A DNA stretch of 33,089 nt, taken from positions 1 to 33,089 of the forward strand of contig JAHWGK010000005.1 in NCBI GenBank assembly GCA_020054495.1, read 5' to 3'. This document shows positions 11,471-31,327 of the stretch, piece by piece. Within the stretch, counting starts at the first letter, position 1, and the number at the start of each line of letters is the position of its first letter. Source of the DNA: Thermoplasmata archaeon (lineage in GTDB: Archaea; Thermoplasmatota; E2; DHVEG-1). The notes under the pieces are model-generated. The model did no database searches. It had not been told where the DNA came from and saw nothing but the letters and a program-made list of their open reading frames with translations. A program made the translations under genes and the position numbers.

Positions 11471-11527
11471 GGATATATACCATTGATTAATATACATTAT
11501 TAGAGAGCGTGGATGGGGACCTGCTAG

Positions 11528-14500
11528 TTGTTTTCAAAGAAACCTAAGAATTGGATAAGAAAGCACAAAAAAAATACTTTAAATAATTTAGACTATCGAA
11601 ATATTGCTAAGAAAAAAACTGCATCTATTGATAATATTGATGAATTAGTTGATAGTATTTTAGCAAAGGTTAAAATTAATTCTTTTGAGAAATATGCAAA
11701 TGTGAAAACTGTTATTAGAATAGGAAAAAGATTATCTGCTAAAAAATTACTATCAATTGCATTGTCGTTTACTTTGTTGTTTGCTGTCATTGCTTCTGCA
11801 AGTTCTTTGGTTGATCCTGATCTGATGGGGGCATCTGCTGATGCTGGAGGAGGATCTATTGGTGATTCTTTGTCTTCTAATTCAAATATTTCTGAACATA
11901 ATCTATCTGATGATGTTTTGGATAATTCTACATTTTCAAATAATCAGAACGGAACTGATGTAGATGGTAATGAGAGTGTGATAAATGAATCGATCCATCC
12001 AGTGGATGATGTTAATGGGAACGATACTTCAAATAAATCAATTGTTCCTTCGAGGTTAAATCTCTCATTGCAGAGTGATAAAGATGTTTATACTGTTAAT
12101 GAAACAGTCTTTGTCGAGGGTAGTGTCTCATATAATGATTTGTTAGTAAATGCATCAGTCAGCCTCTTAATTATTGGTCCAGGAATTCATTTGTCTGAAG
12201 TTTTGGATACTACAAATAAAGAGTTTTCTTATGAATTTGTTCCTACTGCCATAGGTAATTATTCTGTTCATGGTAATGTTTTGTTTGAGAATGAATCTGC
12301 AGAAAAAATCATAGTTTTCAATGTTATTGATTTACCATTTAATGATTCAGATGATGATCCTTCTGATGATCAAAAAATTCCAGATGTTGTAGATGACGCA
12401 GGTATTCATGGGACGCCATTTACTGTAGTTGAAGCACCGGATAACAGCTTAGGACCTTCATCTTTTAAAGTAATAAATATGGATTATTTTTGGGATTATT
12501 TTGATCGATATAGTGGTTGGTATTTAGACGCTTGGGATGCCAATAATGGTAGTTGGTTTGATGTAACTGAAAATTTGAATATAATTCGTGATAGAAGCGT
12601 TGATAATCAATTTGAAAAAGTTTCATTGGAGTTTACTGCTCCCATGACAGCTGATTATCGTCTCACTTATATTATTGATAGGCCAGTCAAAGAGTTTATT
12701 GATTTAAGTGATCAATATGAATATCAGCTGATTTTCTCAGTAGGTAATGATGAAGAATATTCAACTTTTTTTAACTTTAGTGACATTGCTAGTCTTCCAA
12801 ATGTTTTAATAAAATATGGTATTGATAAAATTAATGGGGAGAATAAGTTTTGGTTCAGTGTCCAACGTAATAATATCCTTGCAGGAACTAACGTAATACT
12901 AGATCCAACTTTTGGAAATGAAGCCACTAGTACTAATAGTCGTGATGGAGATGATGTACCCGGCGGGTATTTCCAGATGGGTCCTGTAGGAGGAACTGCT
13001 GATAGTATAACTGGATTTTTTTCTACAGCAGGTGGAGCAAATGCTGGTAGAGCAGCAATATACGATAGTGGTGGAAATCTTCTCACCAATGGTTTTACTG
13101 CCGAAAATTCAGCTGTTCAAGATGGCTGGGAAACATTTACATATATTACTGGTCCAACGTTACAAGCAGGTGCTTGGTATTATCTAGTTGCATTCACTGA
13201 TGATGCTAAATCTGATTTACGATATGCTTTATCTGGTGGTAATGGTCTTTATGTAGATACTGGTGAATCTTATCCAACCTTTCCAGATCCCTATGCAGCT
13301 ACTCAAATTGACGGTGATGCACTTGTTAGTATTTATTGTACATATACAGAGTGGGATGATGATTCACCAACTCCTGATCCAATGACATGGTCTACTGAAC
13401 CATATAATGTGAGTTCTTCAAGTATCACAATGATTGCAACAACAGCCGCTGATGCTACTCCACCAATTGAATATTATTTCAATGAAACTACGGGTAGTTC
13501 AGGTGGATCCGATAGTGGGTGGCAACAGAGTACAACTTATTCTGATGATGGGCTATCTGAAAATACTCAATATGGTTATGAAGTAAAAGCAAGAGATAGT
13601 AATGCAACTACAAATGAAGGCAAATATAGTACTCCAATGTCCTATGAATATACAAGTATAGATCCAGCAACTAATGCTGAACTTACTTTTACCAATGGAA
13701 CAACTTGGATAAATGCAACAGTTGTTCAACCTCCGAATCCAACAAGTGGCTGGACTGCTAGTAATTTTAGTTGGACTACGGGAGGTGTAGTTTATAGCGA
13801 TTGGCAAAATGGTACTTATTATCATAATCGGTCGGGATTATCGGAAAATACTGAATATGGTTGTCAGGTACAGTTTCGTAATGGTGATGGGGATGCATGT
13901 GGATTTAATCCAACTGAAAAAACTAATTATACGCGTTGTATCGCTCCTGCTGATGGAGAATTTTCCCTTGATTCAAAAGGCATAACGTGGATTAATATGA
14001 GCGTTCTTGATGTTGATAATAATCCAACTGCAGGTAGTACAGCCGCATATTTTGAATGTGTAACAGGCGGTGCTAGTGATAGCGGCTGGATTACTGCAAT
14101 ATCTGGAGGTCGATATTATTATAATGCAACTGGATTAACCGCTGATACTACTTATGGTTTTAGAGTTAAGTACCGTAATGCAGAGAGTGTAGAAACAACT
14201 TACACTATTGAGAAACAAGATACAACAGACTCACCTATTGCACCAACAGTTACAACCAATGCAACAACAGCAGTGGAGGCTACAAATGCTACACTCCATG
14301 GATGGCTTCAAGATAATAGTGGTGTAGATACAACATGTTACTTTTTATTAAATGATACAAATGATTTCGGGAGTCCAATATTTAACCTGTCAAAAGGAGT
14401 TATTGCAAATGGAGTCGAATTTGAAAACGACACTGCCGGAGAGACAACCTTAACTCCTGGAAAATTGTATTATTTTAAAGCAATAGCAAATAACAGTGCA

Positions 14501-17500
14501 GGATGGTCTGAGGGTAGTGTTAAAATCTTTTTAACCAAACCTGAAAACATTTCATCATTTACTGCGACTTTAAACGGTGCAACCCAAATTGATCTTACTT
14601 GGACTGATGAATTAAGGGGAGATGGAGCATATATAGAATACGCTAAAAATGCACCTCCAAGTCCTTGGAATGAAGGTGATGGAACACCTGTAGATGCTGA
14701 TGGAAATGTTACATCGTTGTTTGCCCATGCAGGTTTAGATCCTGGAACACACTATTATTACAAAGCTTGGGCGTATGCTACTGATGGTAGTTGGACAAGT
14801 AGTGGAAACCAAAGTTCTCCACGCGGTAATCCAATGACTGCTGATGACACAACAACTGGAATGCCAACAGTGGCTACAAATGATACTACTGGAATTGAAG
14901 AAACTAATGCAACACTTGAAGGATGGCTACAATCAAATGGTACTTTAGATTCATATTGTTATTTCTTATGGGGAACCCAAAATCCACCGACTGATAATAA
15001 TGTATCTCAAGGTATAATTGGTAATGGTGTAAGTTTCAGTTATGATACAAGTGGTACAGGGCCTTTGGCAAAAGCAACGCTTTATTATGTTGATACAAAA
15101 GCAAATAACTCAGGTGGATGGGATGAATCTGGAGGTGTAAAAGCATTTCTTACAAAACCAGATCCGCCATCTAATCTTTTTATTCAAACAAATACTTCAT
15201 CTGTGATTTATTTAACTTGGAGTACTGGAACAGGTTATAATACAACTTATATTGAAAGAAATGCTAGTGGTGAAACATCTTGGGCATTGGGTGAGGGAAC
15301 AATGATTTATAATGGAACGGCTACTCAATATGAAGATACGGGCCTTACAGAAGGTGTAAATTATTATTACCAAGCCTGGACTTTCGCAAACTGGACTAAT
15401 GGCACTCAAACATGGCATCAATATTCGGATAATAACGAGAGTGATAGTAATACAACTAACAATATTCCAACTATCTCTAATGAAGATCCTACAAACGGAA
15501 GTACAGGTGAGAGTGTTCCAAGAGAATTGAGTATAACTGTGAATGATGCCGAGGGAGAGCCTATGACAATAACCTGGTATAGCAATAGCAGTGGTCAATG
15601 GCTAGCTTTTGCCACTAATGTAACTGGTGCAGATGGTAATGGGACCTATTATCAGACAAATGATAACTTCAGTAATTACTCTAACACATACTATTGGAAT
15701 GTAAGTGTAACTGACAGTAAAGATGCAAACCTGTCTGATACATTTCACTTTTCAACTGAAACTCTAGTCACCTCAGTAGATGCTATTACTCCTTATATAG
15801 TAACAGCGTCACCTAAAACCACTACTGCAAATGGAGATTCAGCTTTAGATGAAGTTAGATTGTATTATAGATGGTCTAATGATAATCAAACTTGGGATTC
15901 TTGGGATACTTTAACCTATGATGATTTCGAAGGTGGGTTTGGTAGCTATACTGATGGTGGAGGAGACTGTTCTCTCTATACAGGTGGTACATATGCTCAT
16001 CAAGGTAGTAATGCTGCAGACATCCAATCTGGTAACGGAGATGCTTCTTCGTTTTATCATACATCTGGAATAGATGTTGATACAACAGGATATGAATTTA
16101 TAAAAGTTGATTTTTGGTACTATGCTGTAGGTATGGAATCCGGTGAAGATTTCTATTTAGAGTATTATGATGGAGGTGGCTGGCAGCTTATATCAATATA
16201 TGAATCTGGTGCAGATTTTTCAAACGGTCAGTTTTATCATGAAATTGTTTGGATTAATGAATCAACCTATACATTTCCCTCCAATATGCAAATTAAATTC
16301 AGGTGCGCTGCTGATCAAACCAATGATGATGTTTACATAGATGAAATATACGTAAACGCTACTACTCAGAATACTTTTGGAAATGGTATAAACTGGACAA
16401 TATGGAGTGATGCAACTAATCCTGATATTAATTATCCATGGAGTTGGGACTTCAATTTCCCAAATGGTTCTGGTTATTATGAGTTTTATAGCATTGGAAA
16501 CAAATCAGGGTCTGGTGATGAATCTGCACCAGGCAGTGCTGATGCAAGTTGTCGATTAAACTATATACCTATCATTAGCAATGAGGTTCCGTCAAATCAG
16601 AGTACAAATATTCAACTACTGCCACAACTGAATATAACAGTAAATGATATGGAAAATGAGACCATGAATATCACTTGGTATAGTAACAGCAGTGGTTCAT
16701 GGCAGATATTTGGAACAAATAATTCAGTTAATAATGGTACTTACTATCAAACTAACGCCAATTTCAGTGACCCCGGTAAAACATATTGGTGGAACATATC
16801 TGTTTATGACGGGATTCATACAAACACAACAACATATTATTTTAAATTAAGTTATGAACCTGTATTTGGTAATCCCGGACCAAGTAATCAAAGTACTGGG
16901 CAATATACAACACCAGTTTGTAATGTAACAGTTTCAGATCAAGATGGAAGCACTGTTACTGTACGATTTTTAGAAAATACAACCGGACCATGGATTTTGC
17001 AGCAAATAAATGGTAGTGTCGATGTGACAACTCCTGCAAACGTTGTATGGGACAACTACAATAACGCATCACAAGATTTTACAACGTACTGGTGGAAAGT
17101 TAACGTTACTGATGGAAAGGGGAATTTCATAGAAGAAATATATAATTTTAGAACTGCTAACGTTACAATAGAAGCCACTCCAGCACGATGGGATCAAGGA
17201 TTATTATCTATGGGTGGATCCAATGAAACAAGCGGCTTTTATTTCAATCTTACAAATCAAGGAGATGCTCCTTTATTCATACAAATAAATGCAACTAATG
17301 CTACAAATTCAACAACTGGTGCTTTATGGCGACTTAATGCAACACCGGATTTTGATAATTTTACTTTACAATACAATAAGAGTGGTGTTGGCACCTGGAC
17401 CAATATTAACCTCACTTACGATACTTTTGTTACCAGTCTTGCTGTTGGTTCTTGGCAAACTTTTGATTTGAAACTATTTATGGCTCCTAAGGCAACCTAT

Positions 17501-17548
17501 GGCCACCCGCTTACTGTAACTATTACATTTAGATCGGTTGCAGCATAA
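11528..17548 (+). CDS. Giant secreted multi-domain surface protein (FnIII/Ig-like repeats), 2006 aa
   Basis: Exact function is unknown; this is a probable cell-surface adhesin or structural glycoprotein. About 73 mostly basic residues precede a hydrophobic segment at 74-95, an unusually long N-region that may act as a signal anchor. Next come an Asn/Ser/Asp-rich linker, an Ig-like domain at about 177-268, two unassigned beta domains (298-465, 466-610) and a series of FnIII-like units from about 617. Repeats with PTNGSTG and GYYEFYS motifs follow, one split by a MAM-like beta domain (about residues 1464-1615). The C-terminal domain at 1877-2006 ends TITFRSVAA and matches that of the 4053-residue protein. 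N-glycosylation sequons are very dense. The TTG start is forced by a stop codon (TAG) directly before it, and ATGGGGACC provides the ribosome binding site. Confidence 0.9.
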   Translation: MFSKKPKNWIRKHKKNTLNNLDYRNIAKKKTASIDNIDELVDSILAKVKINSFEKYANVKTVIRIGKRLSAKKLLSIALSFTLLFAVIASASSLVDPDLMGASADAGGGSIGDSLSSNSNISEHNLSDDVLDNSTFSNNQNGTDVDGNESVINESIHPVDDVNGNDTSNKSIVPSRLNLSLQSDKDVYTVNETVFVEGSVSYNDLLVNASVSLLIIGPGIHLSEVLDTTNKEFSYEFVPTAIGNYSVHGNVLFENESAEKIIVFNVIDLPFNDSDDDPSDDQKIPDVVDDAGIHGTPFTVVEAPDNSLGPSSFKVINMDYFWDYFDRYSGWYLDAWDANNGSWFDVTENLNIIRDRSVDNQFEKVSLEFTAPMTADYRLTYIIDRPVKEFIDLSDQYEYQLIFSVGNDEEYSTFFNFSDIASLPNVLIKYGIDKINGENKFWFSVQRNNILAGTNVILDPTFGNEATSTNSRDGDDVPGGYFQMGPVGGTADSITGFFSTAGGANAGRAAIYDSGGNLLTNGFTAENSAVQDGWETFTYITGPTLQAGAWYYLVAFTDDAKSDLRYALSGGNGLYVDTGESYPTFPDPYAATQIDGDALVSIYCTYTEWDDDSPTPDPMTWSTEPYNVSSSSITMIATTAADATPPIEYYFNETTGSSGGSDSGWQQSTTYSDDGLSENTQYGYEVKARDSNATTNEGKYSTPMSYEYTSIDPATNAELTFTNGTTWINATVVQPPNPTSGWTASNFSWTTGGVVYSDWQNGTYYHNRSGLSENTEYGCQVQFRNGDGDACGFNPTEKTNYTRCIAPADGEFSLDSKGITWINMSVLDVDNNPTAGSTAAYFECVTGGASDSGWITAISGGRYYYNATGLTADTTYGFRVKYRNAESVETTYTIEKQDTTDSPIAPTVTTNATTAVEATNATLHGWLQDNSGVDTTCYFLLNDTNDFGSPIFNLSKGVIANGVEFENDTAGETTLTPGKLYYFKAIANNSAGWSEGSVKIFLTKPENISSFTATLNGATQIDLTWTDELRGDGAYIEYAKNAPPSPWNEGDGTPVDADGNVTSLFAHAGLDPGTHYYYKAWAYATDGSWTSSGNQSSPRGNPMTADDTTTGMPTVATNDTTGIEETNATLEGWLQSNGTLDSYCYFLWGTQNPPTDNNVSQGIIGNGVSFSYDTSGTGPLAKATLYYVDTKANNSGGWDESGGVKAFLTKPDPPSNLFIQTNTSSVIYLTWSTGTGYNTTYIERNASGETSWALGEGTMIYNGTATQYEDTGLTEGVNYYYQAWTFANWTNGTQTWHQYSDNNESDSNTTNNIPTISNEDPTNGSTGESVPRELSITVNDAEGEPMTITWYSNSSGQWLAFATNVTGADGNGTYYQTNDNFSNYSNTYYWNVSVTDSKDANLSDTFHFSTETLVTSVDAITPYIVTASPKTTTANGDSALDEVRLYYRWSNDNQTWDSWDTLTYDDFEGGFGSYTDGGGDCSLYTGGTYAHQGSNAADIQSGNGDASSFYHTSGIDVDTTGYEFIKVDFWYYAVGMESGEDFYLEYYDGGGWQLISIYESGADFSNGQFYHEIVWINESTYTFPSNMQIKFRCAADQTNDDVYIDEIYVNATTQNTFGNGINWTIWSDATNPDINYPWSWDFNFPNGSGYYEFYSIGNKSGSGDESAPGSADASCRLNYIPIISNEVPSNQSTNIQLLPQLNITVNDMENETMNITWYSNSSGSWQIFGTNNSVNNGTYYQTNANFSDPGKTYWWNISVYDGIHTNTTTYYFKLSYEPVFGNPGPSNQSTGQYTTPVCNVTVSDQDGSTVTVRFLENTTGPWILQQINGSVDVTTPANVVWDNYNNASQDFTTYWWKVNVTDGKGNFIEEIYNFRTANVTIEATPARWDQGLLSMGGSNETSGFYFNLTNQGDAPLFIQINATNATNSTTGALWRLNATPDFDNFTLQYNKSGVGTWTNINLTYDTFVTSLAVGSWQTFDLKLFMAPKATYGHPLTVTITFRSVAA
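15918..16370 (+). other. MAM-like beta-sandwich inserted within a host repeat domain
   Basis: Within the 2006-residue protein, a repeat begins TSVDAITPY and runs to LYYRWSNDNQTWDSW. It is then interrupted by about 150 residues starting DDFEGGFGSYTDGGG and ending NDDVYIDEIYVNAT. The host resumes with NWTIWSDATNPD and PWSWDFNFPNGSGYYEFYS. The inserted part has the order of a MAM/jelly-roll carbohydrate-binding fold (YEFIKVDFWYYAVGMESGED, then IKFRCAADQTNDDVYIDEI). Boundaries are by eye and may be off by about ten residues. Confidence 0.5.
17158..17545 (+). other. Shared C-terminal domain, copy in the 2006-residue protein
   Basis: Residues 1877-2006 begin VTIEATPARWDQG, contain FYFNLTNQGDAPLFIQINAT, NINLTYDTFVTSLAVGSWQT and end VTITFRSVAA. 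The domain aligns along its length with the last 129 residues of the 4053-residue protein. It has no membrane helix and no recognised sorting motif. Its fixed terminal place in both giants suggests attachment, assembly or secretion. Confidence 0.75.
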
Positions 17549-17617
17549 AACTTCTAGTTCTTCCTCATTTTAGAAAATAGAACTTTTTAGTTTAATCAAG
17601 ACTCATAGTTCTAGCTA

Positions 17618-17835
17618 TTAATCGTCAAATTAAAAGTTGATTTACTAGAAAAAGTAAATATAATATTTATATACTAGTTTTTGATATGTAAATTGAGCGG
17701 ATGGGTAAATTTACTAAGGGGGTGGGCAATTACTTTGATGTTGTTTGTTAATCGTCAAATTAAAAGTTGATTTATTAGATAAACAAAATGTAACATTTAT
17801 AAACTAATTTTAAATACATACATTGAACGGGATGG
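17618..17835 (+). repeat. Tandem 88-base direct repeat carrying two TATA boxes
   Basis: Copy 1 is 17618-17705 and copy 2 is 17748-17835, offset by 130 bases. The first 27 bases are identical and the rest diverges, but both copies keep a TTTATA box (17666-17672 and 17796-17802) and end in a matching TTGARCGG...ATGG. The second copy supplies the probable promoter and start region of the zinc-ribbon gene. The first drives at most a 16-codon frame (17701-17751). The identical block upstream of the TATA box looks like a conserved regulatory site. Confidence 0.8.
17701..17751 (+). other. 16-codon reading frame behind the first promoter copy
   Basis: ATG at 17701 opens a frame coding MGKFTKGVGNYFDVVC and closing with TAA inside the second repeat copy. 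Its ATG aligns with the ATG of the zinc-ribbon gene in copy 2. It could be a leader peptide or the decayed start of a former gene. Nothing else supports expression. Confidence 0.2.
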
Positions 17836-18467
17836 TTGGCTCACGACGAGGAGTGGATGGAAAATTATTGCATTTTTGCCCACATTGTCACAGTAAAAAA
17901 ATTGTAAAAAACGGCCATCATTATGGAGGGAAACTCCAATTTTTATGTAATAGTTGTCACAAACATTTTACAGAAGAAGTTGCAAAAGGATATCCAACTA
18001 CAAAAATCCCGTTCCCTGTTATTTCTTATTTATTGTACTTCCGTCGAAAACTTCCAGAGTTTTCAAATATGAGGAAGTACAGACGGTTTGTCAACCATTG
18101 GTTAAGATATCTTCAAGTTAATAACCAGGATATATCCAGACAAACCATTCACCATTGGAATAATGAGTTTGACCATCTCCTAGATAGAGTAATCACATTT
18201 GAAGAATCTCGTGATTACTGCAAAAATCGAATAAAACAACTTGCAAAAGCACGTCCACCACAACAAACCATCCCGTATCAACGTGCTTTGGAAGTTATGG
18301 TAAGAAAGTTTGGGAGAGCCGCCGTAGTTCGATTGATCAAAACAGATGAAATTTTCTTCAAAGAACTTGTGAATGTGATTAGCAGACACGGCGTGTTTAA
18401 TTGGGAATTTCTAGAAGGAAATTATGAAAGGAGGAGCGGAAGCCAGCGTCCCTTAGCTGCAGGGTAA
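17832..18467 (+). CDS. Transposase-like zinc-ribbon/HTH protein without a DDE domain
   Basis: This 211-residue DNA-binding-type protein begins with a zinc ribbon, CPHCHSKKIVKNGHH then FLCNSCHKHF, as at the N-terminus of IS1/IS6-like transposases (InsA-type finger). A helix-turn-helix-like segment, DISRQTIHHWNNEF, follows near residue 100. The C-terminal half is charged, and no DDE catalytic residues are recognised. No terminal inverted repeats of an insertion sequence were seen around it. It ends 17 bases before the 4053-residue surface protein gene, so they are probably co-transcribed. A duplicated promoter precedes it. The ATG at 17832 is preferred over a TTG at 17823 because both promoter copies keep an ATG there; the TATA spacing implies a very short leader. 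It may be a domesticated regulator or a truncated transposase. Confidence 0.7.
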   Translation: MVGSRRGVDGKLLHFCPHCHSKKIVKNGHHYGGKLQFLCNSCHKHFTEEVAKGYPTTKIPFPVISYLLYFRRKLPEFSNMRKYRRFVNHWLRYLQVNNQDISRQTIHHWNNEFDHLLDRVITFEESRDYCKNRIKQLAKARPPQQTIPYQRALEVMVRKFGRAAVVRLIKTDEIFFKELVNVISRHGVFNWEFLEGNYERRSGSQRPLAAG

Positions 18468-18484
18468 CAAACGTGTGATATAAT

Positions 18485-21400: not shown

Positions 21401-24400
21401 GGTGATGCAGCTAGATGTACTCAGGTTTATCTTAACGTTACCTATACACCGGTAACAAATAATGCACCAACACAATCAAATCCTGGTCCCACTAATGGAA
21501 GCACAGGACAGGATTTAACACCACCATTAAATGTTACTTGTTATGATACTGATGATGATACTATGAATGCTACATGGTGGAGTAATTCATCTGGTAGCTG
21601 GGTACAATTTGCATCAAACACAAGTATTGCATCAAGTTACACAAATATAATACAAACAAACAGTAACTTCAGTAACTACAGCACAACATACTACTGGAGC
21701 GTAAACCTATCAGATGGAGAAGGTGGCTGGGATAATGAAACTTATCATTTCACAACAGAAAATATAACTACATCAGTTGATACTATACAACCATATAACC
21801 TTTCCTCCTCTACAAAAACCCTTACTGCTACTTGCTCATCAAGTTTGGATAATGTTACACTTTGGTATCGATATTCTTCTGACAATTTAACTTGGGGAGG
21901 TGAAGATCCAGATAATGAAATTGGAGTTCTTTATGCTGAACAGAATACCGAACAATCTCAACAAGGAGCCACAGAGAAAACATTAGCAGCAATAGATTCT
22001 GCTGATTTTGTAGTTGGAGATGATTACATAATTATTGCCTCCTGTCATGTAAGTGCTAGTACTTCATCAACAAGAGCTGAAACATATCTTAAACATGGAT
22101 CTTCGATATTTACAGTTACTCAAGAAGAACAAGAACCACCTTTTGATAGTACAACAGCTTGGATTTATTCAACAGTGATAAAATGGACAGCAATCAGTGG
22201 AGAAAGTATTGAGTTAACAGGACAAGAAGCAGATGATACAGCAGGATATGCGTATTGGGATGAAATTTCACTTATGGTGATTCCATTGAAAAATTTAACA
22301 GAAGGAATTGATTATTGGTATGATTCTGAAACTACCGCTGATAATAATATGGATGATACTTGGGCTAATAATGAAGGAGCTAGTATTACATTTACTCCAG
22401 ACGGGACAAGTAATTATCTTGCAATGGCTTCAAGCAGGATTGAGGCAGATACAACTGAAAATGATTTAATGGCAATGAGAATTGCTGAAGGAGGTAGTGG
22501 TCTCGGTCAAGTTGAAAGAGATTGTGAAGATTCAAATGATGAGTCAGTATTAACATACATACGAATTTTAGAAGCTCCATCAGCAAGTTCAACTGAATAT
22601 ACTGTTCAATTCCAAGGTGACAGTGTTCATGATAAACTATCTAGTCAATTATTTATTCTGAATCTTAGTGCATTCAAAAATAGTTCATATAACCAAACTT
22701 CAGCTACTAATGAAATAAGTAGTTCCTGGGAAGAATTAGGAAATGCTAGTATGAATTTAACATATGCCGGTAATGTAATTGTGATCTGGGCGGACTTATA
22801 TGAATACACACAAGACAAAACGACCCTCCCTCCTAATGAAGCATGGATTGGAGCAATAAGATACCGTGCAAATTATGGAAATAGTAGTTCATCTTCCATA
22901 AGTAAACTAACAGTTACTAATCGCCTCTGTAGCTGGAATAGATATGACTATACTGAAGGAGCGGACAGAGGATGTGGAATAATGTTTGACCGAATTAACA
23001 TAGAAGATACAAGTGAGCATTGGTATACATTAGATGGCGATGGAGAAAGTGTGTTTGTTGTTCATTCCGATTATGGAACTAGAATAATAGCTTTTAGCGA
23101 GTCAACGATAAATGAAGGATGGAAGATTTGGAATAATGCAAACAATCCAGACACTGCAAGTCCTTGGAGTTGGGACTTTAACTTCCCCGATGGATCTGGT
23201 TATTATGAATTCTATAGTATGGGAAACAAAACGGGTTCACCTAATGAAACTGCCCCAAGAAGTGCTAATGCAATTTGTTATTTAGGTGATAATACTAAAC
23301 CAACTGTTGACTTTGAATTACCAACTCCTGCAAATAATACTGAATTAGCTAACACCTGGGCAGATGTGAACGTATCAGTTTCAGATACAGGTGGTAATGT
23401 CTCAAGCTTTATTGATTGGGATGGTAGCCTAAGAGGATATTGGTCAATGGAATATCTAAATTCAACTGGAGTATTTGATAATTCGACGTATGATAACTTT
23501 GCAACTTATAATGGAGATGATTTTGATGAAAACAACCAAACATCTGCAATATATGGAGATGGTTTAGAGTTTGATGGAGATGATGATTATCTATTAGTAA
23601 GTGATCATAGTAGCCTTGATATAACAGATGAAATAACAATTGAAGCTTGGGCAAAGGATCCACCATTGATACCATCAAAAGATAAAGATACTAAGGATTC
23701 ATTTGAAGAAATTGAAAGTATAAAATCTCAATTAGATAAAAACAAAGAAATTATTAATTACAATATCAGTGATATAACCTTATATAAAACAAAAAAAGAT
23801 ACTTTCTATCTTTACAATCTTTTAGAAACATTTGATCTTCTTAAAAAATTCTACTTTAATTATTTAGGAATAGAAAACATTGAATCAGATAATAACTATG
23901 GTAATAATTCTAAATTATCTCTTGATAAATCAATTAAGCAGTTTGATGAATATCTTATTGAATGCTGTAACTCTAAAACTGAAAAGGATAAAACAAGAGC
24001 AATTTTAAAGTTCAAAGAAGGTATTACACCTCAGAAATTTACGAAAATTACATCTGATTTAGAAAATTCTGGTTTCATAAAAACAATGGAGATTTTCTCA
24101 GAGAGGATTGTTGCAGGTTATATTAATAACACAATTTTAGAGAAAATAAACATTATAGATGATATTGAAGAGGTTTATACTGATAGAGAGTTTGAAATTT
24201 TATTAACTGAAAGTATGCCATTAATAGGAGTAGAAAAAACCTCCTTAGAATATAACCTCACTGGTAAGGGTAAAAAGATTTGTATACTGGATACGGGTGT
24301 AGATTCCACTGTTGTTAATTATAGTAGTGGATACGACTTTGTATATAATGATAATATTTCTGATGATAATTACGGTCATGGAACTATAGTTGCAAGTATT

Positions 24401-27400
24401 ATTGATAGAATTGCCCCTGATGCAGAGCTTATTGTAGCAAAGGTCATAGGTGATGATGGAACTGGGTATGAGTCAGATGTATTGGAAGGATTACAATGGT
24501 GTATCAACCAAGATCCTGATGTAATAAGTTTCAGTATTGGTGCAGGTAGTTACGATGGTTTCTGTGATAATAACCTTATTGCCCAATTATGTGATCAAGC
24601 ATTCACTAGAGGAATCTTTATTGTAGCTGCCGCTGGAAGTGATGGTAACAGAAATTTAAGAGCTCCAGCATGTGGATCAAATGTATTTTCGGTAGGAGCC
24701 ACAGATGATCAAGACAATATTGCATCATTTTCTTCTGTCAATCCAACAATTGATATGTTTGCTCCTGGAGTAAATATAGTAACAAAAGCAGGCTCAGGAT
24801 CTGGAACCTCCTTATCTGCCCCACATGTTGCAGCATCTTCATTATTGTTATTAGAAAAGGAAGATTTGGATGTACAGGATTTAAAATACAGGCTAAAAAC
24901 AACTGGTAAACCAATTCTTTATCAATACAATGATACTCTTGATATATACATACCTCGTTTAGATATTTACAACTCGTTGATTAACAATAAGACGATGGAA
25001 CCATATGATTACTCATGGTATAACTATGTTGAAAGTGGAGATAAAAATGAAGAATATATTGTTTTAACCACAGATATATTCTATTCTGATAATAATGATA
25101 CGTGTCTATATGAAGCCAGTCCAGATGCTAATTTTGGTAATGATAGTTTTATGTATGTTGATTCTAGATCAACTCAGAATAATCGTATGATGGTTCAGTT
25201 TGATTTATTATCTGAAGTACCATATGGATGCGATATCATTGATGCAAAGTTAGAAATCTATTACTATGGCAAGAGTATTTTCAGTCCTGTAGGTCGAACA
25301 TATAGATGTCACAGAATTTTCGGTTCTTGGGAAGAATGGTATCCTACTTGGAATAATTGGGTCGGTAAATTTTGGGGATCAGGTTATAGCACAGATACGG
25401 TTCCAGGTAGTTATGGATATATGGAATGGGATGTAACAGATCATGTTCAAGGTATTGTTGATCAAAATTCTAGTTATTATAATAATGGATGGCTGATAAA
25501 AGATAGCGATGAAACAACAGCTGTTAACAGATGGGCAAAATTCTATTCAAGTGAGCATGGAAGCAATAAACCAAAACTTACTGTACAATGGAGTTGTAAT
25601 TCGCCAACAGTTACAAACAACGGTGGAGCAACGAGCGTTGAAGAAACCACTGCTACATTAAGAGGAGAAGTAACAGAAACTGGAGGATGTGACCCTACAG
25701 CCATTATTTACTATGGAGATAATGAAGGTTCAACTAATCCTTTAAGCTGGGATGAAAATGTAAACGCTGGAGCAGAATCTGGCTCATTTAGTGAAGGTGT
25801 TACTGGACTTACTTCAGCAGATCTTTATTACTATAGATGCTATGCATCTAATTCAGGTGGTGGCGATTGGGCAGACAGTGCCGAGAAATTCTTAACAAAG
25901 CCTAATGCACCGTCTACTCTGACTGCTTCATCGCAGACTAAAAATTGTATAACATACACATGGAATGCTACGTCTAAAGGAACAGGCGCAACCCTTAATA
26001 CAAAAGTAATGGCAAACATATCAGGATTTCCATCTGATCATGAAGATGGAACAGAGTGGTATAATAGTACGAGTGAAAGTGATACTCAATGTATTCTTCT
26101 AATGGGACAGATATACTATGTGAGAGCATGGTCCTGGGCCACCGAAGGAGGATATAACAAGTGGAGTGACGGATATGATAGTGAAATAATGTATACAAAA
26201 CCAGGTGATCCAACTTCTTTAACTGCGGACAATCCAACTATCTCAACTATAAATCTAAGCTGGACAATAGAAGGAAGCAATGGTGGGGATAGAGTAGTTA
26301 TAAGGAATAGTACATCAGGTTATCCCTCAGATCCAACAGGTGGTTACGAGACATATAATAGTACTGATATGTCTGGTCCTCATACTGATACGGGTCTTGA
26401 GCCTGGTACAACATATTACTACAGCTTATGGATATATGATAGTGAATCAGGATATTTCAGTGACGTCAAGGAAACAGCTTACAACACAACCAATTTAGCA
26501 TTGCCAACAGTCGTTACGCTTTCAGCTATAGGTGTAGAAGAAACAAATGCAACCATTAGAGCCGAGATAACTTCAACAGGAGGAAAAGAGCCATATCGTT
26601 GGATAGTATGGAATACCTCCGGTTCACCGTTTACAGATCCATCTAAAAACGAAAGCTTTGTCCCAGATGGAATAGGGATATATAGTAAAGATATCACTGG
26701 TCTTTCAAATGGAACTCAATATCACTTCAGAGGATTAGCTAACAATTCAGTTGGATGGAGTAATGGTACTAATATTACATTTTGGACGAAACCTCAACCA
26801 CCCAGTGATTTTGGAGCTATAGCAATAAATAACACCCGGATAAATCTCACATGGACTATTGGAAACGGCGCTGTGAATACAACAATTATCCAAAAAGCAG
26901 GGAGCTCTCCGACTAGTAGATCAGATTATGATAAAATTGTATATAACGGAACTGGGACAAGTTGCAATGATACTTTATTAGATGGGTTTACAACATATTA
27001 TTATAGAGCTTGGTCAACTACTAATCCTGATTCAGATCCACCAGATCCAACGGCAAGTGCTACCACTTGGTCACCAAAAACAATACTTGCTAAAGGGGAT
27101 GCTTATGAGCTTTTCATCAATGGCACAACATTGTATGGGTATCTTAATGGTACGTTGATTGTAAATACATCTATAGATGAGGAGTGGCATCATGTCGCTT
27201 TCACCTATAATGGCTCTGTTGCATGTCTCTATGTCGATGGAAACCTCAATGATACAAATAGTAGTTATAATGAGCCGATTAAAACAAATAATAACAACCT
27301 TGTTTTAGGTCAAGATTTCCAGGGTACTCTTGATGAGGTTCGTCTTTGGAGTCGGGAGCTTAGCTGGGAAGAGGTCAACGCTTCTTATGATGCTTCTAGT

Positions 27401-30400
27401 TATTATTCCCATAATTTCACTGGATTATCATGTAATAATTATTCATATTATGCTCATGCCATTGACGAATTGGGTAATGAAAACGTTACTGAGACAAGAT
27501 ATTATAACTGTACAAATAATTGCCCTGTGTCACCTTCAAATGGTGCCCCGACATTTAACAATCCAGATGATGGAGATAACTGCTATGCACAGATTGGGAA
27601 ATGGTATAATGTTACTGTTAAATACACTGATAACAATGGATACAGTGATTTTGATTATGTCGAACTCCGGCTGTTGAATCAGAGTGATACAACCCGAGCT
27701 ATTTTTAGATATACAGAATCAACTAATACGTTTTCTCAACAGGATAGTCTTAAAAAGTTCGAGTTCAACACATCATCGTCCTTTGCTGAAGAACTAGATA
27801 ATAACATAACTATTTACTGGCTTTTCAAACCACATTGGAATGCAGAAAATGAAACCGATTATGACATACAATGTTATTGTATCGATGGCACTGGTTTAAG
27901 TGATAATGATACAACAGCTGACCAGTTTGATGTCATTACAAACCTACTTGTATCTAGCATCGAATGTAACGATACAACAGAGGACAGTGGTGTCGATCGC
28001 ATAAGTTTAAACATACAAACACAGGTAAACCTTAGCATACGTTATGCTAACGATCCTGGTTCAAGTACACCTTCTAGCTCTTATCCTCCTGATGATGAAT
28101 TCACAAGTGTTTCACTTTATAACAGTTCAGATTATAACTGGGGGACTAATAATTCTATTTCAAATGGTAATGGAACAATCTGCTTCACACCAGATGAAAT
28201 CGGAATTGATAACTACACTCTCTACATAAACATGAAAGACGGTGATTACAGTGACGGAGAAAAAATTAATCCATATGAGACAATTATCGTTGATCGAGTG
28301 AACGTTACCAGCATTGCTGTATCTGAACATATCTATTATGATGGTTCACGTTATTGGGATAAAAATACTCCAATAAATCTTACATATACAGCAAAACTCG
28401 ATTATGATGGAACAAACTTTACTACTGTCAACGGAGAATTAAACGCAGGATATCTAGGGGACTCTACTGCATGGGGAGGAACAACTAGTTTGAACATATC
28501 TGTTAATGACTCCTCATCAGGTAACATTGTAATTAGAGATGACGCAACCGCAGGCTCAGTCTACGATGGTGGTGATTATGGTATAACAGCTCTTACAGTA
28601 ACCGCGAGTAAACCAGATATCGGTTGGGATTGGGAAGCACCCTCTATTAGTGTAACTGGTGAAAACGAAAGCAGCGAGTATCTTTACGCGGGTTATGGCA
28701 CAGGGTCGCAAGGAGTTTATGGATCAGGCATGGGAGGTACCCTTAAATCATATAATGTGAGTGGTACTGCATCTGACAACAGTGGCTCTGGTATGACATC
28801 TGTCATAGATGATACAAGCTTTGGAGATAATCCTTCAAACGATGGAATTACCACAAACTGGTGGTTTATCTACCAGATCGATCAGAACGATAATGGTGAT
28901 GTAATTGTCAATTACACCGCGGAGGACAATGTGGGTAATACCAATACTGTTAACTATACTTTCTACGAGGACAATGATGATCCAACACTTTCTGATGCTA
29001 TGTTTGATTACAGTGAGTCTGGCGATACAGATGAAGTCTACGGTAACACTTCTAGTAACATCTTCTACTTCTCCAATTCATTTGATAGTTATGCAAATAT
29101 ATACATCAATGCAACAGGTAGTGACACTGGAGAAGCAGGTGTTCGAGGGGTTGATTTCAGCTTGTTTGGCGCTGATGATCCATCTGAGGATACCAACAGC
29201 CCGTACACTGGCAATTACACGATAAACGATGATGATTCATCTGGTTCAATAACCGTTATTATCTATGATAATGTTAACAACTCAGCTTCAGATACAATAA
29301 CTTGTACAGGGGATGATACATCGCCAGATACAACGATAGATAACATCCCAGATACTATAACTGATTTAGATATTATATCTGGTAGCGCCACAGATAATAT
29401 ACGATTAGCTCGACAATATTTTTATATTAAAAATACAACGACTAATAAGTATTATAATGAACTAGGCTGGACTGATAGTGAAACCTGGCTTGACGCTGAT
29501 GCTAATGACAGCTTTGATTCAGGAGCTGAAAACTGGAATTACAATACTTCCCTTATATCCTGGGCTAACAGTCATAGCTATGAAATAAAAGCAAAGGCTC
29601 AGGATATCGTTGGGAATAATGATTCATCACCAGCAGCTGATACATTCACTATTACTATTGCAAGTACTCCAACAGTAACAACCAACGCTTCTACTGGTGT
29701 TGAGGAAATGAATGCAACCTTATGGGGTTGGCTACAAAACAATGGAAGCGCTGATACAACCTGTGGATTCAGACATGGCACCTCTTCTGGAAGCTACGAT
29801 ACTAATATTACCAACGGTATCGTCCAAAACAATACTGAATTCTCAAACGACACAACAGGACTTACACCCGGCCAGATTTATTACTATCAAGCCTGGGCGA
29901 ACAACAGTGGAGGATTTGCAAATGGCTCAGAATTAACATTCCTCACAAAACCAAATGTTACAGCCAATTTCAACGCGGCAACATACAACTCAACACAGAT
30001 CAACTTAAGTTGGAATAAAGGAGATGGGGCAAATAATACCTATATCGAAAGAAACCAAACAGGAGCAACTGTTTGGGCACGCGGAGAAGGAATATTAATC
30101 TACAATGGAACAGGAACATATTATGAAGATACTGGACTTACACCCGAGACAACATACTATTACCAGGCCTGGAGCTATGCAAACTGGACCTATGATTCAA
30201 CCACTCTTCATAAATGGTCAGATAACAACGCAAGTGTAAGCAATACAACTCAAGAGACTAACACCACTCTAGAGATTACCCCTGCTTCGTGGGATATAGG
30301 AACTACTACAATCGGAAGTTATAATTACTCTACATCAGACTTTTATTTCAACCTAACAAACGAAGGAAATGTCGTTCTTAACATACAGATTAAGGCGAGT

Positions 30401-30646
30401 AATGCAACGAATGCTACAACTGGTGCTAATTGGACTCTTACTTCCACACCCGGCTTTGATAACTACAGTCTGCTGTATAATAAGAGTAATAGTTGGAATA
30501 ATATCAACCTTACATATGATACATTTGTTACCGGTCTTGGTGTTGGTAGTTGGCAGACATTTGATTTGAACATATTTATGGCAACGACATCATCAAAAAG
30601 TGATCCATTATCTGTTACTATTACATTTAGATCTGTAATTTCCTAG
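18485..30646 (+). CDS. Giant secreted protein with thioredoxin-like and two subtilisin (S8) domains, 4053 aa
   Basis: This is a probable surface-attached protease/adhesin. A long basic N-region precedes a hydrophobic segment near residues 65-90. Then come Ig-like domains (97-180, 233-325), a thioredoxin-like domain (about 325-435, Cys355-Asn-Pro-Cys358, cis-Pro399), a propeptide-like part and S8 domain 1 (Asp568, His597, Asn685, Ser742). A beta domain, an Ig-like repeat holding a 400-residue insert, and the first LamG half (1641-1724) follow. The inserted block (1725-2850) contains S8 domain 2, a DNRLRE-like domain (about 2190-2370) and FnIII units. After it come the second LamG half (to about 2968), Ig-like and FnIII modules, and a C-terminal domain (3925-4053) shared with the 2006-residue protein. 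The frame is unbroken over 12 kb. The ATG has GTGTGATA upstream. N-glycosylation sequons abound. Confidence 0.92.
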   Translation: MLDEDKNRKLNTIREEIDSLSYKSRRCVYSKKSSSNVDYLVDRAFAKQNGKQIIRNKIKKKLPWKQTLAILVTLIVVLAAIPYVLPPLYGDFGTDVSIVLDPDEVHVNESVLINVSIPSFYNITNVSADMAGVETINLSLFDNSTSLHLWQAVWLVHDLLPDEYIMTITASDGLNMTYSAGTRLSVVSDDIHSDNQSSEPDDNDTLPPGYNETIPPDVDDDHDEDNNSIIPAGLDISMLIENHSYYINETVLITGEVTYNYTFINTAINLSFIGPSFNKTAVINATNGTFSYKIKFFNIGIYKVQGQISYNNETKDVERMFYIDKPTEDISIQTKIDQSINKGKPVLLFFYTNGCNPCQEEEKVLIELINIYAEEIDFIYVHETGNQSIIEDFDVKNYPTMFLIIDKVHEGYLYKYLEGIVNKTELMSYIDQALDKNESNNFAGWWRGEIVSQSPLELPSEIDSIISNNEPIQIIIKCKDGENLTEKVTYLKSIGFVPTAEIESLGFIAGVIDKVVYDKIKFDSGLDDVYTDDGFTVLLNESLPLVRYNEAAQSFNVTGSGKKICIIDTGVDSSIVNYSYGYDFVHDDNIPDDEHGHGTRVAAVIASIAPDSELVVAKVIDGSGVGYESDVLEALEWCIEQSPDVISFSIGTEDSCDGFCNTNFVANMSNDAFDSGIFVVAASGNDGSKSLKSPACGSNVFSVGATDDYDNIASFSNVNPTLDLFAPGVDITTFAGTGSGTSYSAPHVAAASLLVLELVDLNPIDLKYRLRSTGVPVGYVYNESLSLDIARLDVYNVLANNKTMEPYDYSWWWQGILGDGEVYEPLDVVSLLPDAEGDTQTWTIFPADRGGLHWNKVDDPVGSPDGDSTYVYSTTVQNEEFNHTTDEKLEGATISEVKVVARMKYVGVAVTVNIGLNVGGTRFPGGSNNALTASYAYYEQKWNQNPADSQDWEKSDIDSLQTSLRYMIGMFPGDAARCTQVYLNVTYTPVTNNAPTQSNPGPTNGSTGQDLTPPLNVTCYDTDDDTMNATWWSNSSGSWVQFASNTSIASSYTNIIQTNSNFSNYSTTYYWSVNLSDGEGGWDNETYHFTTENITTSVDTIQPYNLSSSTKTLTATCSSSLDNVTLWYRYSSDNLTWGGEDPDNEIGVLYAEQNTEQSQQGATEKTLAAIDSADFVVGDDYIIIASCHVSASTSSTRAETYLKHGSSIFTVTQEEQEPPFDSTTAWIYSTVIKWTAISGESIELTGQEADDTAGYAYWDEISLMVIPLKNLTEGIDYWYDSETTADNNMDDTWANNEGASITFTPDGTSNYLAMASSRIEADTTENDLMAMRIAEGGSGLGQVERDCEDSNDESVLTYIRILEAPSASSTEYTVQFQGDSVHDKLSSQLFILNLSAFKNSSYNQTSATNEISSSWEELGNASMNLTYAGNVIVIWADLYEYTQDKTTLPPNEAWIGAIRYRANYGNSSSSSISKLTVTNRLCSWNRYDYTEGADRGCGIMFDRINIEDTSEHWYTLDGDGESVFVVHSDYGTRIIAFSESTINEGWKIWNNANNPDTASPWSWDFNFPDGSGYYEFYSMGNKTGSPNETAPRSANAICYLGDNTKPTVDFELPTPANNTELANTWADVNVSVSDTGGNVSSFIDWDGSLRGYWSMEYLNSTGVFDNSTYDNFATYNGDDFDENNQTSAIYGDGLEFDGDDDYLLVSDHSSLDITDEITIEAWAKDPPLIPSKDKDTKDSFEEIESIKSQLDKNKEIINYNISDITLYKTKKDTFYLYNLLETFDLLKKFYFNYLGIENIESDNNYGNNSKLSLDKSIKQFDEYLIECCNSKTEKDKTRAILKFKEGITPQKFTKITSDLENSGFIKTMEIFSERIVAGYINNTILEKINIIDDIEEVYTDREFEILLTESMPLIGVEKTSLEYNLTGKGKKICILDTGVDSTVVNYSSGYDFVYNDNISDDNYGHGTIVASIIDRIAPDAELIVAKVIGDDGTGYESDVLEGLQWCINQDPDVISFSIGAGSYDGFCDNNLIAQLCDQAFTRGIFIVAAAGSDGNRNLRAPACGSNVFSVGATDDQDNIASFSSVNPTIDMFAPGVNIVTKAGSGSGTSLSAPHVAASSLLLLEKEDLDVQDLKYRLKTTGKPILYQYNDTLDIYIPRLDIYNSLINNKTMEPYDYSWYNYVESGDKNEEYIVLTTDIFYSDNNDTCLYEASPDANFGNDSFMYVDSRSTQNNRMMVQFDLLSEVPYGCDIIDAKLEIYYYGKSIFSPVGRTYRCHRIFGSWEEWYPTWNNWVGKFWGSGYSTDTVPGSYGYMEWDVTDHVQGIVDQNSSYYNNGWLIKDSDETTAVNRWAKFYSSEHGSNKPKLTVQWSCNSPTVTNNGGATSVEETTATLRGEVTETGGCDPTAIIYYGDNEGSTNPLSWDENVNAGAESGSFSEGVTGLTSADLYYYRCYASNSGGGDWADSAEKFLTKPNAPSTLTASSQTKNCITYTWNATSKGTGATLNTKVMANISGFPSDHEDGTEWYNSTSESDTQCILLMGQIYYVRAWSWATEGGYNKWSDGYDSEIMYTKPGDPTSLTADNPTISTINLSWTIEGSNGGDRVVIRNSTSGYPSDPTGGYETYNSTDMSGPHTDTGLEPGTTYYYSLWIYDSESGYFSDVKETAYNTTNLALPTVVTLSAIGVEETNATIRAEITSTGGKEPYRWIVWNTSGSPFTDPSKNESFVPDGIGIYSKDITGLSNGTQYHFRGLANNSVGWSNGTNITFWTKPQPPSDFGAIAINNTRINLTWTIGNGAVNTTIIQKAGSSPTSRSDYDKIVYNGTGTSCNDTLLDGFTTYYYRAWSTTNPDSDPPDPTASATTWSPKTILAKGDAYELFINGTTLYGYLNGTLIVNTSIDEEWHHVAFTYNGSVACLYVDGNLNDTNSSYNEPIKTNNNNLVLGQDFQGTLDEVRLWSRELSWEEVNASYDASSYYSHNFTGLSCNNYSYYAHAIDELGNENVTETRYYNCTNNCPVSPSNGAPTFNNPDDGDNCYAQIGKWYNVTVKYTDNNGYSDFDYVELRLLNQSDTTRAIFRYTESTNTFSQQDSLKKFEFNTSSSFAEELDNNITIYWLFKPHWNAENETDYDIQCYCIDGTGLSDNDTTADQFDVITNLLVSSIECNDTTEDSGVDRISLNIQTQVNLSIRYANDPGSSTPSSSYPPDDEFTSVSLYNSSDYNWGTNNSISNGNGTICFTPDEIGIDNYTLYINMKDGDYSDGEKINPYETIIVDRVNVTSIAVSEHIYYDGSRYWDKNTPINLTYTAKLDYDGTNFTTVNGELNAGYLGDSTAWGGTTSLNISVNDSSSGNIVIRDDATAGSVYDGGDYGITALTVTASKPDIGWDWEAPSISVTGENESSEYLYAGYGTGSQGVYGSGMGGTLKSYNVSGTASDNSGSGMTSVIDDTSFGDNPSNDGITTNWWFIYQIDQNDNGDVIVNYTAEDNVGNTNTVNYTFYEDNDDPTLSDAMFDYSESGDTDEVYGNTSSNIFYFSNSFDSYANIYINATGSDTGEAGVRGVDFSLFGADDPSEDTNSPYTGNYTINDDDSSGSITVIIYDNVNNSASDTITCTGDDTSPDTTIDNIPDTITDLDIISGSATDNIRLARQYFYIKNTTTNKYYNELGWTDSETWLDADANDSFDSGAENWNYNTSLISWANSHSYEIKAKAQDIVGNNDSSPAADTFTITIASTPTVTTNASTGVEEMNATLWGWLQNNGSADTTCGFRHGTSSGSYDTNITNGIVQNNTEFSNDTTGLTPGQIYYYQAWANNSGGFANGSELTFLTKPNVTANFNAATYNSTQINLSWNKGDGANNTYIERNQTGATVWARGEGILIYNGTGTYYEDTGLTPETTYYYQAWSYANWTYDSTTLHKWSDNNASVSNTTQETNTTLEITPASWDIGTTTIGSYNYSTSDFYFNLTNEGNVVLNIQIKASNATNATTGANWTLTSTPGFDNYSLLYNKSNSWNNINLTYDTFVTGLGVGSWQTFDLNIFMATTSSKSDPLSVTITFRSVIS
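19440..19790 (+). other. Thioredoxin-like domain with CNPC motif
   Basis: Residues about 325-435 of the 4053-residue protein read GKPVLLFFYTNGCNPCQEEE, then DFDVKNYPTMFLI. That is the thioredoxin order of strand, CxxC at Cys355/Cys358 and cis-proline at Pro399. The domain lies after the membrane segment, so it acts outside the cell. It could form or reshuffle the disulfides of the neighbouring S8 domains, which contain several cysteines. Confidence 0.75.
20080..20810 (+). other. Subtilisin-family (S8) protease domain 1
   Basis: The complete catalytic set is visible: IIDTGVDS with Asp568, HGHGTRVAA with His597, AASGNDG with oxyanion Asn685, and GSGTSYSAPHVAA with Ser742. About 80 residues before it resemble an I9-type propeptide (IQIIIKCKDGENLTEKVTYL... 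DDVYTDDGFTVLLNESLP). It is therefore expected to be an active serine protease, possibly self-processing. Confidence 0.9.
21905..23105 (+). other. 400-residue beta domain inserted in a host Ig-like repeat
   Basis: The host repeat begins TSVDTIQPY and runs to LWYRYSSDNLTWGG. It is interrupted at residue about 1141 and resumes near 1541 with GWKIWNNANNPD, then PWSWDFNFPDGSGYYEFYS. The inserted part is not recognised. It contains two similar-looking halves, each with a phrase of the type ...YAYWDEISLMVIPL and ...QLFILNLSAF, suggesting a duplicated beta-sandwich. The break falls at the same place in the host repeat as the MAM-like insert of the 2006-residue paralogue. Confidence 0.5.
23407..23656 (+). 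other. LamG (concanavalin-like) domain, N-terminal half
   Basis: Residues 1641-1724 carry LRGYWSMEYLNSTGVFDNST, then GDGLEFDGDDDYLLVSDHSS and DEITIEAWAK. This is the standard opening of a LamG/concanavalin-like jelly roll. The domain stops abruptly at AWAK-DPP, and its continuation (KTILAKGDAYELFI) is found 1126 codons later. Confidence 0.8.
23657..23665 (+). repeat. 9-base direct repeat at left border of inserted block
   Basis: GATCCACCA here is identical to 27035-27043 at the right border. Both are read in the same codon phase as Asp-Pro-Pro. It may be a target duplication or the microhomology used in recombination. Confidence 0.6.
24180..24910 (+). other. Subtilisin-family (S8) protease domain 2, altered oxyanion residue
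   Basis: This domain is paralogous to S8 domain 1 of the same protein. The catalytic triad is kept: ILDTGVDS with Asp1936, YGHGTIVAS with His1965, and GSGTSLSAPHVAA with Ser2109. The oxyanion-hole asparagine is replaced: AAAGSDGN has Ser2052 where domain 1 has Asn685 in AASGNDGS. A propeptide-like stretch (RAILKFKEGITPQKFTKI... EEVYTDREFEILL) precedes it. Reduced or altered activity is possible. Confidence 0.85.
25046..25596 (+). other. DNRLRE-like beta domain
   Basis: Residues about 2188-2371 show LYEASPDANFGNDSFMYVDS, MMVQFDLLSEVPYGCDIIDA, KLEIYYYG, a Trp-rich PTWNNW, EWDVTDHVQGIVD, then NGWLIKD and AKFYSSEHGSNKPKLTVQW. This is the order of the DNRLRE/CBM-like domain of secreted proteins, thought to bind polymers or stabilise extracellular chains. 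It directly follows S8 domain 2. Confidence 0.7.
27035..27043 (+). repeat. 9-base direct repeat at right border of inserted block
   Basis: This is the second copy of GATCCACCA. It is followed by GATCCAACGG, and then the LamG domain resumes within about twelve codons. Confidence 0.6.
27044..27390 (+). other. LamG domain, C-terminal half
   Basis: Residues about 2854-2968 read KTILAKGDAYELFINGTTLY, then DEEWHHVAFTYNGSVACLYV, LVLGQDFQGTLDEVRLWSRE. These are the second-half strands of a LamG domain, completing the half at 23407-23656. Confidence 0.8.
30259..30643 (+). other. Shared C-terminal domain, copy in the 4053-residue protein
   Basis: Residues 3925-4053 begin TLEITPASWDIG, contain FYFNLTNEGNVVLNIQIKAS, NINLTYDTFVTGLGVGSWQT and end VTITFRSVIS. 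It closely matches the C-terminus of the 2006-residue protein (17158-17545). Confidence 0.75.
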
Positions 30647-31238: not shown

Positions 31239-31327
31239 CAGGTTAGCTTTAAATATAATCATTGACAAAATGTATCGTGCTATCACTTAACATCATATGG
31301 AAAAAAACGAAAACGGAAGGAAACGAG

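Follow-up and report, generated by a model that had tools for sequence, protein, structure and literature searches.

Two very large surface proteins lie one after the other on the stretch of DNA analyzed here (the window: 33,089 nucleotides, contig C204:1-33089 of a genome totaling 2.72 Mb in 248 contigs), and the locus raises the question of how proteins that match at both ends and vary between them are held at the cell surface, and what they might do there. MBG-D archaea are uncultured and widespread in sediments. The window genome, that of a seafloor archaeon, appears to be of the Thermoprofundales type (MBG-D) within the Thermoplasmatota, a placement made by kinship and not by direct name, because the relatives that bear the C-terminal domain of the giants include SG8-52-3, one of the Thermoprofundales genomes listed in PMC6461988. 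The named relatives recovered in that search were Thermoplasmatales/Thermoplasmatota MAGs; one bacterial match (L089, E of 3e-4) was taken as chance. The same source reports extracellular peptidases and a peptide-degrading lifestyle for Thermoprofundales. The features discussed below are collected in Table 1.

Table 1. Features of the two giants and their surroundings (window coordinates; the last four lines give other loci).
Feature	Coordinates	Strand	Basis or remark
Giant 1 (P0001), 2006 aa, type-1 N-region	11528..17548	+	ORF and translation
Giant 1, cytoplasmic motif DNIDELVDSILAK	11630..11668	+	E 1.1e-5 genome-wide; instance in training set
Giant 1, single hydrophobic segment, residues 77-95	11756..11812	+	hydropathy
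Giant 1, first Ig-like domain, NETVFVEGSVSYN, LLIIGP	12059..12337	+	approximate boundaries
Giant 1, C-terminal domain	17141..17545	+	homologous to small secreted subunits
P0003, 214 aa, IS1/IS1595-type zinc-ribbon protein	17823..18467	+	ends 17 nt before giant 2
Giant 2 (P0002), 4053 aa, type-2 N-region	18485..30646	+	ORF and translation
Giant 2, cytoplasmic motif SNVDYLVDRAFAK	18587..18625	+	E 0.004; not in profile training set
Giant 2, single hydrophobic segment, residues 67-85	18683..18739	+	
Giant 2, first Ig-like domain, NETVLITGEVTYN, LSFIGP	19187..19459	+	approximate boundaries
Giant 2, thioredoxin domain, residues 336-431, CNPC	19490..19777	+	Pfam PF00085, E 8.7e-9
Giant 2, subtilase domain 1, residues 559-759	20159..20761	+	PF00082; Asp/His/Ser and oxyanion-hole Asn present
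Giant 2, LamG domain, first part, residues 1689-1724	23549..23656	+	HMM of intact relatives, i-E 6e-9
Giant 2, subtilase domain 2, residues 1926-2141	24260..24907	+	triad present, oxyanion-hole Asn replaced by Ser
Giant 2, LamG domain, second part, residues 2898-2970	27176..27394	+	i-E 1e-7, collinear with first part
Giant 2, C-terminal domain	30245..30643	+	homologous to small secreted subunits
HEAAH protein, 132 aa, two-segment membrane protein	30737..31135	-	no Pfam or NCBIfam match
PKD-domain membrane protein, C-terminal segment and cytoplasmic tail	31262..32782	+	PKD_4, E 7e-33
PKD protein tail, motif variant DVSRRINKLLSELNKK	32717..32779	+	E 0.003; in training set
P0003 relative upstream of type-2 giant	L081 10694-11335		
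P0003 relative upstream of type-2 giant	L085 4081-4743		
P0003 relative upstream of type-2 giant	L112 4156-4809		
P0003 relative upstream of type-2 giant	L159 1662-2285		

Each giant opens with a basic N-region (76 residues with a net charge of +14 in giant 1, 66 residues with +10 in giant 2), followed by a single hydrophobic segment and an acidic ectodomain carrying 89 and 155 N-glycosylation-type sequons, respectively. A second, weak hydrophobic segment in giant 1 (residues 205 to 223) lies inside the Ig-like domain and was taken as a beta strand. The N-termini of the two proteins align over about 300 residues (26% identity, E of 3e-22). A sequence-only reading had described a similar first Ig-like domain and matching C-ends, and both descriptions hold: both giants contain the NETVxxxGxVxY and IIGP/FIGP phrases, the phrase NET/NES...G.V.Y recurring in 11 of 16 family members, and the terminal 133 to 135 residues are 61% identical, with TITFRSV in both and two more residues after it. 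The same reading held that the middles differ greatly, which is right for the payload and wrong for the FnIII/Ig-type repeat stretches that both middles share (E of 6e-62). Its larger claim, that the ends stay constant within a modular family while the centers vary, is borne out by 10 full-length members that carry both ends.

The middle of a giant reads as a modular payload. Of the two window giants, only the 4053-residue one has thioredoxin, two Peptidase_S8 domains, and LamG. Its match to the subtilase profile (E of 2.9e-64 for the whole protein) falls into two stretches that are 70% identical in DNA, and membership in subtilase family S8 follows from the profile match together with the catalytic Asp, His, and Ser of both copies, residues whose roles, like that of the oxyanion-hole position, are those of subtilases generally. 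The oxyanion Asn is found in copy 1 only; copy 2 reads GSDG in place of GNDG, a change to Ser by which this copy may be weakened. The two LamG parts (window 23549-27394) match consecutive parts of one profile and are split by about 1170 residues, the gap including the second subtilase and FnIII-type domains. Elsewhere in the family, a subtilase is carried by three members (giant 2 itself; L047, with rhodanese and thioredoxin; and L116), and LamG together with DUF2341 by the relatives L081, L083, L084, L085, and L087; Pfam found DUF2341 in neither window giant.

The C-terminal domain was followed by profile search. An HMM of the two C-ends found both giants and one weak match (E of 0.0025) in their own genome, and matches in 17 of 60 genomes, the own genome included. 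Among the 28 matches listed, in open frames ranging from about 90 to 4053 residues, 27 end 0 to 16 residues before the stop and one ends 30 before it. The domain is therefore almost strictly a terminal one, as the sequence-only reading had supposed, and not an FnIII-like unit found at any position. Proteins of about 262 to 299 residues have the C-domain without the cytoplasmic motif described below, so that the two ends of the giants are separable.

The C-domain has kin close at hand. When an alignment of 18 C-domains was compared with one of 12 small secreted proteins (165 to 194 residues) encoded in the same clusters, the two proved homologous (hhalign probability 99.0, E of 9e-18). With a cutoff of E<=0.001, a profile of the small protein found matches in 14 of 60 genomes, a few of the weak rows being the C-domains of giants themselves. 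The small protein was present in 8 of 8 relatives with a long giant versus 4 of 51 others (Fisher p of 2e-7), where a relative counted among the eight if it had a long C-domain ORF or recognizable pieces of one, and weak or short-ORF matches, G015 among them, were left out. Sequence and profile searches of Pfam, NCBIfam, and PDB gave no useful-score match for either the C-domain or the small protein.

AlphaFold gave a poor model of the giant C-domain (pLDDT 45.4) and, for the small protein (eight sequences), a moderate ten-stranded one (pLDDT 65.9, pTM 0.60). The VIA rows for the latter included enterovirus capsid proteins, WSSV VP37, TasA, PRD1 P5, a fimbrial protein, and others. TasA (5of2) ranked third, with a Z of 6.8 that falls within the range of unrelated beta-sandwiches, an rmsd of 2.8, and 111 aligned residues; 5of1_A scored Z 5.5. 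Foldseek returned no PDB match for the model at E<=0.001, and its weak rows included several donor-strand pilus subunits. The moderate model fits a jelly-roll or Ig-like subunit whose family is not assignable from it. By eye, the small cluster proteins begin with ordinary-looking signal sequences and not with class III signals.

By analogy, giant and small subunit might work like a scaled-up TasA/TapA or thread/cap pair, or like a tetrabrachion with a built-in protease. In TasA/TapA-type filaments and archaeal bundling pili, a low-copy partner initiates the filament, according to PMC10151520. The TasA/camelysin and TapA system of Bacillus has a small secreted beta-sandwich subunit, as the moderate model (pLDDT 65.9) suggests here, but the partner here is a membrane protein of 2000 to 4000 residues. 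The camelysin family (Pfam PF12389) gave no row at E<=1 for the 12 small proteins, nor for the two scanned against Pfam. Archaeal threads have the subunit Saci_0406 and a putative cap, Saci_0405 (PMC9715654); a subunit and a partner of related fold are likewise encoded side by side, with an ordinary Sec signal on the subunit, but that system is crenarchaeal and its cap is a small protein. The small-protein and C-domain profiles matched no PDB chain of Saci_0406 at E<=10. The relatives with DUF2341 and LamG recall the PilY-like adhesins, bearing DUF2341, of archaeal type IV pili (PMC4858521), and T2SSE ATPases of the order share the giants' cytosolic motif, but DUF2341 is absent from the window giants and the cluster showed no pilus genes. 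In Staphylothermus marinus, Tetrabrachion-STABLE forms a long surface assembly that includes a protease of the subtilisin family and has been proposed to supply peptides for fermentation (PMC5744192); giant 2 is similarly a long cell-surface structure carrying such a protease, but the protease of tetrabrachion is a protein of its own, borne on a coiled-coil stalk, whereas the subtilase is built into the chain of giant 2.

At the other end, the earlier description of the N-region as basic was correct and incomplete, for the region holds a specific conserved motif in addition to its basic residues. The consensus [ND][IV][DE]xxVDx[LVI]L[SA]K precedes the membrane segment in 16 of 16 giants examined (variants in L084 and L088), 10 of which had been found through the C-domain alone; a 3802-residue giant on contig C248 of the own genome lacks it. 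A first regular expression gave 11 matches in 337 distinct ORFs (150,525 residues), 10 of them in giant N-regions. A matrix made from the giants' motifs alone was applied to 35 tails at the C-termini of candidate type I membrane proteins, with random segments of 35 residues as background. Twelve tails, with the motif in the same register, reached or exceeded the 99th percentile of that background; the PKD tail of the window fell below it (p of 0.15). Tails with the motif belong to PKD-type proteins, beta-helix proteins, and one further protein type, and, being kin among themselves, amount to about three independent cases. A loose regular expression matched 15 of 51 tails, one of them by eye a chance match, and was superseded by a profile search.

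That profile has 22 positions and was trained on 24 peptides from the giant and cluster system. In ten genomes it found 16 places at E<=0.01, giant 2 included though outside the training set, and the reversed profile found none in the same genomes at that threshold (best, 0.02). Across the order, 48 places at E<=0.01, many of them training members, were distributed over 27 of 52 genomes, with none in 28 genomes of the class's other families; at E<=0.05, 37 of the 52 have a place, and the other 15, some of them incomplete, have none. Outside the training set were giant 2, most of the small soluble proteins described below, several tails and loops, and the ATPases except that of G001 (L123/L189). 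The statistical case for the motif is strong, and its partner putative.

Sorted by hand, 33 of the 48 places lie in predicted cytosolic segments (15 in the N-regions of giants, 6 in loops of giants with three segments, and 12 in C-terminal tails); the remainder are in the small soluble protein (12 places), at ATPase N-termini (2), and in a 102-residue protein (1). The loops join the second and third segments in another family of giants, represented in the own genome by a 2307-residue protein on contig C193. Of the two ATPase places, one is confirmed and the other sits on a fragment at a contig edge, the end of that fragment being identical to the beginning of an ATPase ORF. The motif stands at the N-terminus of five T2SSE-type ATPases with a readable N-terminus (L189, L191, L201, L203, and the G010 pieces L176/L202), from G001, G007, G010, G023, and G067; Pfam, run on two of them (L189 and L191), confirmed T2SSE. 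For T2SSE as a whole, there were 39 matches in 8 genomes of this set. The copy of this ATPase in the own genome is truncated by a contig end. The motif is likewise N-terminal in a 756-residue multi-PAS protein (L190 1322-3592, minus strand) and, as a variant, in a pair of proteins of 102 to 105 residues (L199 1037-1354, own genome, contig C215; L174 2269-2577).

The small soluble protein (78 to 139 residues; alignment A12 of 14 sequences, L171, L134, L130, and 11 others) is found across a number of genera and families within the order. Its N-terminus mostly shows a WKLF..SK-like patch; it also has a Y.ETL box, a W that never varies, and an IE..(V/I)D half-motif, and it ends in the complete motif (KVDRLLSKKK). 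The ORFs next to it resemble, by eye, a tRNA methyltransferase of the archaeal type and a protein of the HD type. Three motif matches that initially had no ORF turned out to be two small proteins and one membrane-protein tail beside a masked stretch. One motif-like match is extracellular (L043, residue 1042), and two weak matches in the order-wide search fall in other kinds of protein (L182 and L183, E of 0.027 and 0.034).

Because the motif sits in predicted cytosolic N-regions, C-terminal tails, loops, and soluble proteins, the simplest reading of these sequences is that it may dock its carriers to a single cytosolic partner. The sequence-only reading had proposed a dedicated route of export and attachment for the family; the family stands, but a dedicated export route stays conjectural. 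The N-region looks like a docking segment joined to a signal-anchor, because its motif turns up again in secretion ATPases, a soluble protein, and the tails and loops of further membrane proteins.

The genes around the giants are conserved as well. P0003 relatives stand directly upstream of 5 of 5 type-2 giants, that of the window included. The zinc ribbon of P0003 matches NF050000 (E of 5e-12) over residues 19 to 55 only, and no catalytic domain, which IS1/IS1595 transposases have alongside the zinc ribbon, was found in its 214 residues. Given the constant position upstream of type-2 giants, an insertion sequence remnant was rejected as the sole explanation, and proteins of this type are possibly domesticated regulators. 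The interval between giant 1 and P0003 contains a direct repeat of 88 bases, 83% identical (window 17618-17704 and 17748-17835). The HEAAH protein, possibly a membrane protease, is kept at the same place after eight giants, that of the window and seven from other genomes. In several relatives, the cluster runs from the giant through the HEAAH protein (opposite strand), a PKD or similar protein with a C-terminal segment, one small secreted protein or a pair, an Ig-like protein of about 210 residues with a C-terminal segment, and a beta-helix protein of about 730 residues (Pfam Beta_helix/NosD; C-terminal segment and tail) to a protein of about 201 residues with a C-terminal segment; most of this order is visible in L084-L088 and part in L082. 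No pilin or ATPase genes were seen among the cluster genes beside the giants. In the own genome, an N run and unrelated sequence follow the PKD protein (L060, C204:32500-52000, near 589), and the remaining cluster genes are at the start of contig C11 (L042, 207-5808); we infer that the PKD gene on C204 and the start of C11 were once adjacent.

The start of giant 1 calls for separate comment. Window positions 11513-11530 read ATG GGG ACC TGC TAG TTG, where the TTG start follows directly on a stop codon in the same frame. Relatives have TAG (G010), TAA (G002), or sense codons at the stop position, and this variation led us to reject TAG as a coded residue; initiation at TTG, after a GGATGGGGA run resembling a ribosome site, would be the simpler account.

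Several other readings of the giants were weighed. We consider it rather unlikely that N-region and hydrophobic segment together form a cleaved, unusually long signal peptide, such that the motif would act during export, by targeting to a particular translocon site, and be left behind, the giants being held by the C-domain only. Type-1 giants do have a run of small residues (IASAS, ITSAS, GSAS) directly after the hydrophobic segment, in which SAS/ASA-like residues could be a signal-peptidase site, but type-2 members lack a clear one, and the motif also occurs in permanent cytosolic tails and in an inter-segment loop of polytopic proteins, where no cleaved leader is expected. The n-region measures 66 to 76 residues in the window giants; that of a Sec signal peptide (SPase I) is short. 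It strikes us as quite improbable that the motif forms an amphipathic or coiled-coil helix of a general kind, sticking to the membrane surface with no specific partner. It is amphipathic when drawn as a helix, and lysines often come next, but the Asp of the VD position is kept in 44 of 45 aligned instances, the carriers are confined to few protein classes, and neither the reversed profile at E<=0.01 nor the motif profile in the 28 related genomes outside the order yielded a match.

It is unlikely, too, that the giants are type IV pilus-like adhesins which the motif gathers at a T2SSE base, their C-domain being an ordinary beta-sandwich that builds no filament of its own. The motif-bearing ATPases and the DUF2341 of several relatives, a domain proposed for archaeal pilus-tip adhesins (PMC4858521), would fit a pilus connection, but the cluster beside the giants is devoid of visible pilin and ATPase genes, neither window giant has DUF2341, and the signals of the small proteins look ordinary by eye. 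Little probability attaches to the view that the giants are surface-layer stalks of the tetrabrachion kind, with the protease as attached enzyme and the small proteins as canopy: a long ectodomain with a subtilase, a conserved small secreted partner, and the peptide-degrading lifestyle reported for Thermoprofundales (PMC6461988) would suit it, but the subtilase lies within the chain and not in a separate protein, and Pfam gave no match to a known S-layer family.

The observations suggest instead that the giants act as cables between the interior of the cell and a protein layer or filament on its outside. We regard it as an even call that they are membrane signal-anchor cables, docked inside by the motif and joined outside, by way of the C-domain, to small subunits assembled as a layer or filament. 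The uncleaved basic N-region of 66 to 76 residues would remain cytosolic, its short helical address motif docking the giant to a putative common partner that would also be bound by neighboring surface proteins, by the order's T2SSE ATPases, and by the small soluble protein. The hydrophobic segment would serve as signal-anchor, and the ectodomain as a chain of Ig/FnIII-type domains with exchangeable payload, thioredoxin and subtilase here and LamG/DUF2341 in relatives. At the far end, the C-domain may join, cap, or nucleate the layer or filament that the small secreted proteins would build, co-assembling with them; a filament of these subunits is a plausible hypothesis. Held between inner docking and outer layer, the payload would bind and cut polymers, a possible role in the capture and digestion of protein.

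Somewhat short of an even chance, in our judgment, is the wider proposal of an order-wide cytosolic address code, in which one short helical motif would send to a single intracellular scaffold not only adhesins and surface proteases but also secretion ATPases, a protein with PAS domains, and the small soluble protein, the Thermoprofundales surface being organized from inside in a manner unrelated to sortases, archaeosortases, or pilus cores. Among open-licence PMC papers, the scope of our literature search, no description of the motif or of MBG-D surface appendages was found. If true, a common cytosolic tag on adhesins, surface proteases, and secretion ATPases would be a first handle on how MBG-D archaea organize their surface. 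The 22-residue motif peptide could serve as bait for finding the cytosolic hub, and the kinship of the giant C-domain with the small subunit provides a testable model of a new filament or layer.
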